DNA of 64,000 nucleotides. It comes from Bacteroidota bacterium (GTDB lineage Bacteria > Bacteroidota > Bacteroidia > UKL13-3). A program made the position numbers and the translations under genes. Positions 58,763-61,541 of this stretch are shown one piece after another. The stretch covers positions 1 to 64,000 of the forward strand of contig JAIXWD010000011.1 in assembly GCA_027482225.1 (NCBI GenBank), read 5' to 3'. Numbering within the stretch: position 1 is the stretch's first letter; every line of letters begins with the position of its first letter. The notes beneath the pieces were generated by a model. That model did not search any database. It had not been told where the DNA came from and saw nothing but the letters and a program-made list of their open reading frames with translations.

Positions 58763-59737
58763 ATGAAAAATATACTTGAGCAATTTAAAGGTTTAAAAGT
58801 TTTGATAGTGGGCGATGTGATGATTGATGCCTACTATTTTGGAAAAGTAGATAGAATTTCACCGGAAGCTCCTGTTCCTGTTGTTGCAGTGGAAAAAAAA
58901 GAAAATCGACTAGGTGGCGCAGCTAATGTGGCTATGAATTTAGTTGCTCTTGGTGCTAAACCAATTGTATGCTCAGTTGTGGGTAATGATAAAGATGGTG
59001 ATGATTTAATTGATTTGTTTCATCAACAAGGTGTGGGTACCACAGGTATTGTCAAATCTAAAGATAGAGCAACTACTGTGAAGCTACGTGTAATCTCACA
59101 AGCTACACAAATGCTACGTATTGATACAGAAAATACAGAACCTATATCTGCCGTAGAAAGTTATGAATTAGTTGAACGCATACACCAATTATTAATTGAT
59201 GCAGATGTCCTCATATTTGAAGACTATGACAAGGGTGTTTTAACTACAGATAACATTGCTAAAATTACTGAGGAAGCCCACAAAAGAGGAATTCCGGTTG
59301 TGGTTGACCCCAAAAAACGCAACTTCAATGCTTACAAAAATGCCGATTTATTTAAACCCAATTTAAAAGAATTGCGTGAAGGTTTACACAAGGATATTGA
59401 CGTGAGTGATAAACTGGCATTTGAAGCTGCAGTAAAATCAATGATGCAAACCATGCAACTTAAACATGCCATGATTACCTTGAGCGAAAAAGGTGTAATG
59501 ATTACAGATGGAATTACGTTTGAATACATTCCTGCACACATCAGAAAAATTGCAGATGTAAGTGGTGCAGGCGATACTGTAATTAGTGTTACAGCATTGT
59601 GTTTTGCATTAAAATTAAATATGAAACAAACTGCTGCCATGGCTAACTTAGCTGGAGGTTTGGTGTGTGAAGAAATTGGTGTTGTTCCAATCAATAAAGC
59701 AAAATTAGAATCCGAACTAAATACCCTTTTATTTTAA
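58763..59737 (+). CDS. PfkB-family sugar kinase, heptose-7-phosphate kinase-like
   Basis: 324 residues, the RfaE/HldE kinase-domain type: LIVGDVMIDAYYFGKVDRISPEAPVPVV at the N-terminus, RLGGAANVAMNL, and the catalytic base D271 in DVSGAGDT. It would phosphorylate D-glycero-beta-D-manno-heptose 7-phosphate in the LPS-heptose route, but the nucleotidyltransferase half of HldE is absent from this protein. Fits on the same strand as the aminotransferase; operon likely. Confidence 0.85.
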   Translation: MKNILEQFKGLKVLIVGDVMIDAYYFGKVDRISPEAPVPVVAVEKKENRLGGAANVAMNLVALGAKPIVCSVVGNDKDGDDLIDLFHQQGVGTTGIVKSKDRATTVKLRVISQATQMLRIDTENTEPISAVESYELVERIHQLLIDADVLIFEDYDKGVLTTDNIAKITEEAHKRGIPVVVDPKKRNFNAYKNADLFKPNLKELREGLHKDIDVSDKLAFEAAVKSMMQTMQLKHAMITLSEKGVMITDGITFEYIPAHIRKIADVSGAGDTVISVTALCFALKLNMKQTAAMANLAGGLVCEEIGVVPINKAKLESELNTLLF

Positions 59738-59801
59738 TAAAATGTTTTAAGGCCATAATGGCCAAAAAAATTAAGTAAACACAACTAAACTAATATAATA
59801 T

Positions 59802-60125
59802 ATGTTACTAACAACAACCAACAATATTGAAGGCCGAAAAGTAAAACAATACATAGGTATTGTAACAGGTGAGGTAATTTTAGGCGCTAATTTATTTAAA
59901 GACTTTTTTGCTTCCATTCGCGATATTATTGGTGGTCGATCAGGCTCATACGAAAAAGTATTGAAAGAAGCCAAAGATAGTGCCTTGCAAGAGTTAACCG
60001 ATAAAGCCCGCGCTGTTGGTGCAAATGCCATTATTGGTATTGATTTAGACTATGAAACATTAGGAGCAAATGGAAGTATGCTTATGGTAAGTGCCAGCGG
60101 TACTGCTGTAATTTTAGAAGATTAA
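59802..60125 (+). CDS. UPF0145/YbjQ-family protein
   Basis: 107 residues with the YbjQ hallmarks: [57 protein letters not shown]. Function unknown; a homo-pentameric fold is known in the family. It ends 12 bp before the GldN-like gene. Confidence 0.9.
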
Positions 60126-60137
60126 TTTCCATAAGCC

Positions 60138-60938
60138 GTGCGATATTACGCAGTTTTATTTTTTGTATTAATTTGGTGTGAAGTATTGTTGGCCCAACGC
60201 CAAGCTATACCCCCAAAACAAATGCGAGAAGCTGATGCGTTATACGCCAAACGTATTTGGCGCATAATTGATTTGCGCGAACGCCAGAATAAAGTTGCCG
60301 CTTGGCCGCGTAATCCATTAACTAAGGTATTGTATGATGCTACCTTGGTTGGTAAACTCAGGCCTTACCATAACGATTCGCTTAAATAATTTTATGATGT
60401 TGAACAATTTTTAAAACTTGGAACGGATACTTTCCTTTTAAAGAAATTAATTAATCCAAATGGTGATGACGACAACTACACCATGGATACCGTAATAGAA
60501 CGTTTTAACCCAACTGAGCGCATTAAACAATTATTGGTGTTGGAAGAATGGTATTTTGATAAACGCACCTCGCAACAACGTGCACAAATAATTGCATTGG
60601 CACCTTTGTACCAGCGAAAAATTGCGGGCTTCGACTTAGGATTTGTGCCTTTATGTTGGTACAAATTTTACGATAGATTTGATAAAGAAAGTGATTGTAG
60701 AGATGTTTTGGTAAACTCTTTGATGTATAACTCGGGAAACCCTTACCAAAAATTTAGTTATGATGATTGGTTTGAACAACGCAATTTCAGCAGCTTCATC
60801 ATAAAAGAAAGTAACCCATATGATATATTTATTATGGACGACCCTGAAATAAAACGTAAGGGTTTAGATGCTTTAATTGAGGCAGGAAAACTAAAACAAC
60901 AAACTTTGGAACAAGAACATGACCTATACGAAAACTAG
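60138..60938 (+). pseudogene. GldN/PorN-like gene interrupted by an in-frame TAA
   Basis: The GTG at 60138 starts a signal peptide (VLFFVLIWCEVLLAQ) and 83 residues with GldN features (ADALYAKRIWRIIDLRERQN), then TAA at 60387-60389. The same frame continues without break to 60938, with the rest of GldN: FNPTERIKQLLVLEEWYFDKRTS, YDDWFEQRNFSSFIIKESNPYD and the C-terminal LEQEHDLYEN. GldN/PorN is a periplasmic ring component of the T9SS. Here no gldKLM neighbours exist, so it is likely a paralogue. The stop may be real decay, an error, or a read-through stop; the first ATG after the break is at 60483. Confidence 0.85.
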
Positions 60939-60989: not shown

Positions 60990-61541
60990 ATGAAAAAATA
61001 CTTATTAGCAGCTTTAGTAATCTCATCAATTTTTATAGCATGTAAAACAAAAATGGAGGGTATGAGCGAAGTTAAAACTCCCTTTAGCGGAAATAAATAC
61101 GAAGGCAATAAACGTTGGTTTAAGGCTGTGGCCAGTGGCGAAAGCATGAATTTAGAAACTAGCAAAGATAAGGCCATGCTAAGTGCTAAACAACGCTTGG
61201 CAGCATCTGTTCAAACCCAGCTTAAAAACGTAAGCGAAAACTACAAAGGCGAACGTGTAGTTGGTGATAACATGGGCGATTTTAATGAGCGTTTCCAACA
61301 ACTTACACGTGAAGTAACCAACCAAACTTTGGTAGAAGTACAATTGATTGAGCAAAAAGTATTTCAGAACGATAAAAACAGAAACTTTGTAACTTGGGTT
61401 GCCATTGAGGCGCGCAAACGTATCGTGTATAAAAAACTTAAAGAGATTGCCAATACACGCACTTCGTTAAGCGATAAAGATAAAGCCTACATTAACCAAA
61501 TGTTAGATGATGCTATTAAAGAATTAGATGACAACGAATAA
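60990..61541 (+). CDS. LPP20-like lipoprotein
   Basis: 183 residues with lipobox FIAC (Cys18). An LPP20-like domain is suggested by KRWFKAVASGES, SKDKAMLSAKQRLAASVQTQL and the C-terminal VTWVAIEARKRIVYKKLKE. The role of LPP20 proteins is not established beyond surface lipoproteins. It lies 51 bp after the GldN-like gene on the same strand and is followed by a strong terminator. Confidence 0.78.
   Translation: MKKYLLAALVISSIFIACKTKMEGMSEVKTPFSGNKYEGNKRWFKAVASGESMNLETSKDKAMLSAKQRLAASVQTQLKNVSENYKGERVVGDNMGDFNERFQQLTREVTNQTLVEVQLIEQKVFQNDKNRNFVTWVAIEARKRIVYKKLKEIANTRTSLSDKDKAYINQMLDDAIKELDDNE

Follow-up and report, generated by a model that had tools for sequence, protein, structure and literature searches.

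GldN paralogues and the accessory gene gldN2

The closest described counterpart of the gene considered here is GldO of Flavobacterium johnsoniae, which is presented in PMC9127263, in a passage citing Rhodes et al. 2010, as a partially redundant paralogue of GldN whose gene adjoins gldN. Our literature search for extra gldN copies or gldN pseudogenes returned nothing else of direct relevance. For the canonical protein, the structure of PorKN has located C-terminal contacts with PorK at PorN residues P249-L270 and F271-Q283, with a further contact at D220 (PMC12421860).

The 64-kb stretch of DNA analysed here (the window) contains, on its forward strand at 60138-60938, a GldN-family gene with one internal stop codon. 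The gene is a GldN paralogue and not the canonical T9SS gldN. A preliminary description had reported gldK, gldL and gldM as absent, had guessed from this that the gene was a paralogue, and had proposed a search for other gld genes in the genome. Their absence holds for the window and fails for the genome, a 2.72-Mb assembly in 24 contigs with an estimated completeness of 99.92%, where contig C7 carries the intact row porP-gldK-gldL-gldM-gldN with its own canonical gldN; the guess itself was correct. Since the essential ring component is intact on C7, the window gene must be an accessory copy, and we name it gldN2. Like GldO as characterised in that passage, it encodes a second GldN-family protein beside the canonical gldN of the same genome. 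It differs in that it is not adjacent to gldN, standing alone outside the gldK-L-M-N operon on another contig and in an unrelated neighbourhood, in sharing only about 42% identity with the resident canonical GldN, and in being interrupted. In another genus, four genomes each have two adjoining GldN genes resembling the gldN-gldO arrangement of F. johnsoniae (G041:C9, G045:C34, G049:C284 and G052:C128).

The genome as a whole encodes a single GldM, a single GldK and a single canonical GldN, together with one more distant relative of GldK, probably GldJ. This inventory leads us to reject a separate GldM or GldK set serving GldN2. That the T9SS has substrates is indicated by 85 T9SS C-terminal domains (Por_Secre_tail) scoring over the Pfam cut-off. 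A tree built from 53 GldN proteins groups gldN2 from three genera of the family into one clade with support of 100/100, and one more member (G079) was found after that tree was built; the deep position of the clade is less sure, as it sits on a long branch. Nearly all gldN2 sequences have a cysteine (in the motif DCRD) at codon 187 (60696-60698), a residue that the canonical GldN proteins in that genus lack.

The interrupted reading frame

Translation of 60138-60938 yields a single frame from GTG at 60138 to TAG at 60938, broken only by TAA at 60387-60389, as the preliminary description had stated. The upstream part (60138-60386) comprises 83 codons encoding a Sec signal peptide, read by eye as MRYYAVLFFVLIWCEVLLA-Q, and the first 60 or so mature residues. 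The downstream part (60390-60935) comprises 182 sense codons and has no signal peptide; its first start, ATG at 60483, is followed through by 151 codons and lies 31 sense codons beyond the TAA, a spacing that had been counted correctly. Both parts had been described as beginning with ATG, which is true of the second and not of the first, with its GTG start.

Are these two parts one gene? Taken alone, the upstream half aligns through residues 30-83 with positions 2-57 of the Pfam GldN profile PF19841 (53.1 bits, E 4.7e-14), and the downstream half aligns with positions 68-228 (122 bits, E 3.8e-35). Reading through the stop gives 184 bits against a curated cut-off of 23 and covers nearly the whole profile. 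Because the halves match GldN independently and occupy adjoining portions of the profile, the split is that of one gene and not a chance association, so that 60138-60938 is confirmed as one gene with one stop, in agreement with the earlier reading of the two parts. GldN2 thus shares with canonical GldN/PorN (PF19841; PDB 7pvh, 9ots and 9myj) its Pfam family, a near-complete profile match and a signal peptide, and differs from it in lying outside the gldKLMN operon, in evolving faster and in having a stop at residue 84.

Comparison with relatives identifies what the stop replaced. We find gldN2 in seven of eight congeners, in a clearly syntenic neighbourhood in most of them, and intact orthologues occupy the same locus in G004, G005 and G002. 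With G004, the nearest relative, the gene product shares 96% identity across 266 residues, and the surrounding 7-kb block shares 94.6% identity in DNA. The TAA is limited to the window genome: the corresponding codon is CAA in the two nearest relatives (G004 and G005), whose frame is otherwise uninterrupted, and CAG in the next two (G002 and G006), while different sense codons appear further out, so that the lesion is absent from close orthologues. In the wider GldN alignment the residue in this column varies, with Q, G, R, S, K, T and V among those observed, and the stop is confined to the window sequence. The comparison of these relatives shows the ancestral codon to be CAA, from which a single C-to-T transition explains the TAA, just as the preliminary description had surmised when it proposed examining this residue in homologues.

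The same description had allowed for a genuine two-part protein. Both ORFs have plausible start codons, which would be expected if two functional polypeptides were made, the second from ATG 60483. Such a product, however, would lack a signal peptide and remain in the cytoplasm, apart from the periplasmic ring; the 31 codons preceding ATG 60483 are GldN codons matching those of relatives, and the orthologues are single chains, the one exception being a copy with an unrelated frameshift. We therefore consider two functional polypeptides exceedingly improbable.

Production of full-length GldN2 through suppression or recoding of the stop, also raised earlier, fares little better, and we regard it as very unlikely. 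It could account for the constraint on the downstream half relative to the nearest relative, but the split appears so recent that this constraint is uninformative on the point. TAA terminates 31 of the 41 ORFs of at least 150 codons in the window, the stop at this position has no counterpart in other homologues, and stop-reading anticodons are absent from the 30 tRNAs found, although the assembly may miss some tRNAs. The TAA-T context is a strong terminator, which also counts against read-through. Reassignment of TAA, or a suppressor tRNA, is rejected on the stop usage and the tRNA set.

Nature and age of the internal stop

The observed distribution of gldN2 indicates that the gene is not indispensable. 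One congener, G003 (estimated 99% complete), has no gldN2 match, and in G006 the gene (L038:5012-5805, G006:C97) has independently lost one base, and with it the reading frame, some 30 bp 5' of the position of the window's stop; together these point to a dispensable gene. Among approximately 91 GldN copies in 64 genomes of the family, only these two, in the window and in G006, are broken, and both are gldN2. The resulting contrast, with two of 11 gldN2 copies broken and none of the remaining 80 GldN copies (Fisher p = 0.013), was tallied by hand and involves draft assemblies in both broken cases, and is to be taken as supportive only.

We hypothesize, with good though not complete confidence, that gldN2 in the window, a dispensable accessory paralogue, is a nascent pseudogene, created by a C-to-T transition at Gln84 and leaving a non-functional product. 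By homology and by analogy with GldO, intact GldN2 would be exported to the periplasm and would probably partner the single GldK ring or track, either in place of canonical GldN or alongside it. Conversion of Gln84 from CAA to TAA in the window genome would reduce it to the signal peptide and some 60 mature residues. Sequence matches of gldN2 to the solved PorN chains 7pvh, 9ots and 9myj place the stop, in the alignment to 7pvh, near chain position 96, before the midpoint of the protein; all PorN-aligned sequence past about position 95 of that chain would be missing. The PorK contacts all lie past the stop whatever the exact register, so the truncated chain should not join the ring and is predicted to be non-functional. 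The essential role would be filled by the canonical gldN on C7, and loss of gldN2 would be tolerated for that reason. Structure prediction from ten sequences gave a mean pLDDT of 45, and we set this low-confidence model aside. One could also imagine a cell that reads through or tolerates the TAA and makes two products, a short exported N-terminal fragment and small amounts of full-length GldN2, the fragment competing for GldK contacts and so tuning the ring; we give this idea hardly any credence.

How old is the stop? Between the window and G004, dN/dS is 0.11-0.15 for the whole of gldN2 and 0.012 for canonical gldN; judged by these ratios, constraint on gldN2 is the weaker. By part, the value is 0.27 before the stop and 0.053 after it, with flanking genes at 0.03-0.10. 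The window branch carries four nonsynonymous and three synonymous changes plus the stop, and the sister branch three and six, numbers which are small. Besides the TAA, window gldN2 has no further lesions. With the half after the stop still constrained and decay undetectable, the stop must be very recent, polymorphic or an error, and we consider error the less likely option.

That last option, in which the TAA arose as a mistake of sequencing or assembly, or in which the consensus captured a minority allele from a mixed metagenome population whose cells mostly carry an intact gene, deserves some weight. The TAA is the sole lesion in an otherwise normally constrained gene, and the change is a single transition. 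The assembly consists of 24 contigs in which no 16S gene was detected, as is typical of short-read bins; it is thus probably a short-read metagenome bin, in which an error or a mixed-population allele could arise, and the contig with the other broken copy, that of G006, matches the MAG record L055, so that this copy too has a metagenome bin as its source. A polished consensus, on the other hand, rarely has substitution errors, and a stop results from only some 6% of the single-base changes possible in gldN2. No other clear split gene emerged when the 64-kb window was put through a simple ORF screen, and broken copies are confined to the dispensable paralogue. We accordingly hold an artefactual or minority-allele stop to be unlikely, and we infer that the stop is real and the truncated product dead.

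The nascent pseudogene that we favour resembles an ordinary pseudogene made by one nonsense transition: CAA became TAA in a dispensable paralogue whose orthologues in relatives are intact. Nothing notable sets it apart except that the lesion is unusually clean, suggesting that it is very young or polymorphic. We judge this to be ordinary, probably recent gene decay, calling for no new kind of system. It has little significance alone; it does record an accessory GldN lineage outside gldKLMN, spread over three genera and lost or broken in some congeners. Intact and broken gldN2 beside an intact canonical gldN might offer a natural comparison for the role of a second GldN in the T9SS or gliding.

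Neighbourhood and allele exchange

A YbjQ-family gene (PF01906, 59802-60125, forward strand) lies directly 5' of gldN2. On the 3' side, also on the forward strand, is a small lipoprotein-like gene (60990-61541) without a confident Pfam match, which adjoins gldN2 in six relatives (G002, G004, G005, G006, G007 and G018). A pair encoding a TonB-dependent receptor (about 780 aa) and a DUF4249 protein is found beside gldN2 in G002, G007, G008 and G018, in the first three at the equivalent of 59735-59801, the gap between an hldE1-like kinase gene and ybjQ. Neither gene occurs at the locus in the window, G004, G005 or G006. A functional link between it and gldN2 was considered and dismissed as not specific, since the pair also occurs in G009, G010 and G011, which lack gldN2.

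Divergence across 59802-60938 is a mosaic: G005 is unusually close to the window in gldN2 (dS 0.38 in its 3' part) and far from it in ybjQ (dS 1.06). This pattern suggests that alleles may have been exchanged between congeners. The G006 and G005 copies of gldN2 differ at dS 1.07, with neighbouring genes at about 0.3; we had entertained decay as the cause of fast evolution in G006, but the excess is synonymous and makes allele exchange likelier.
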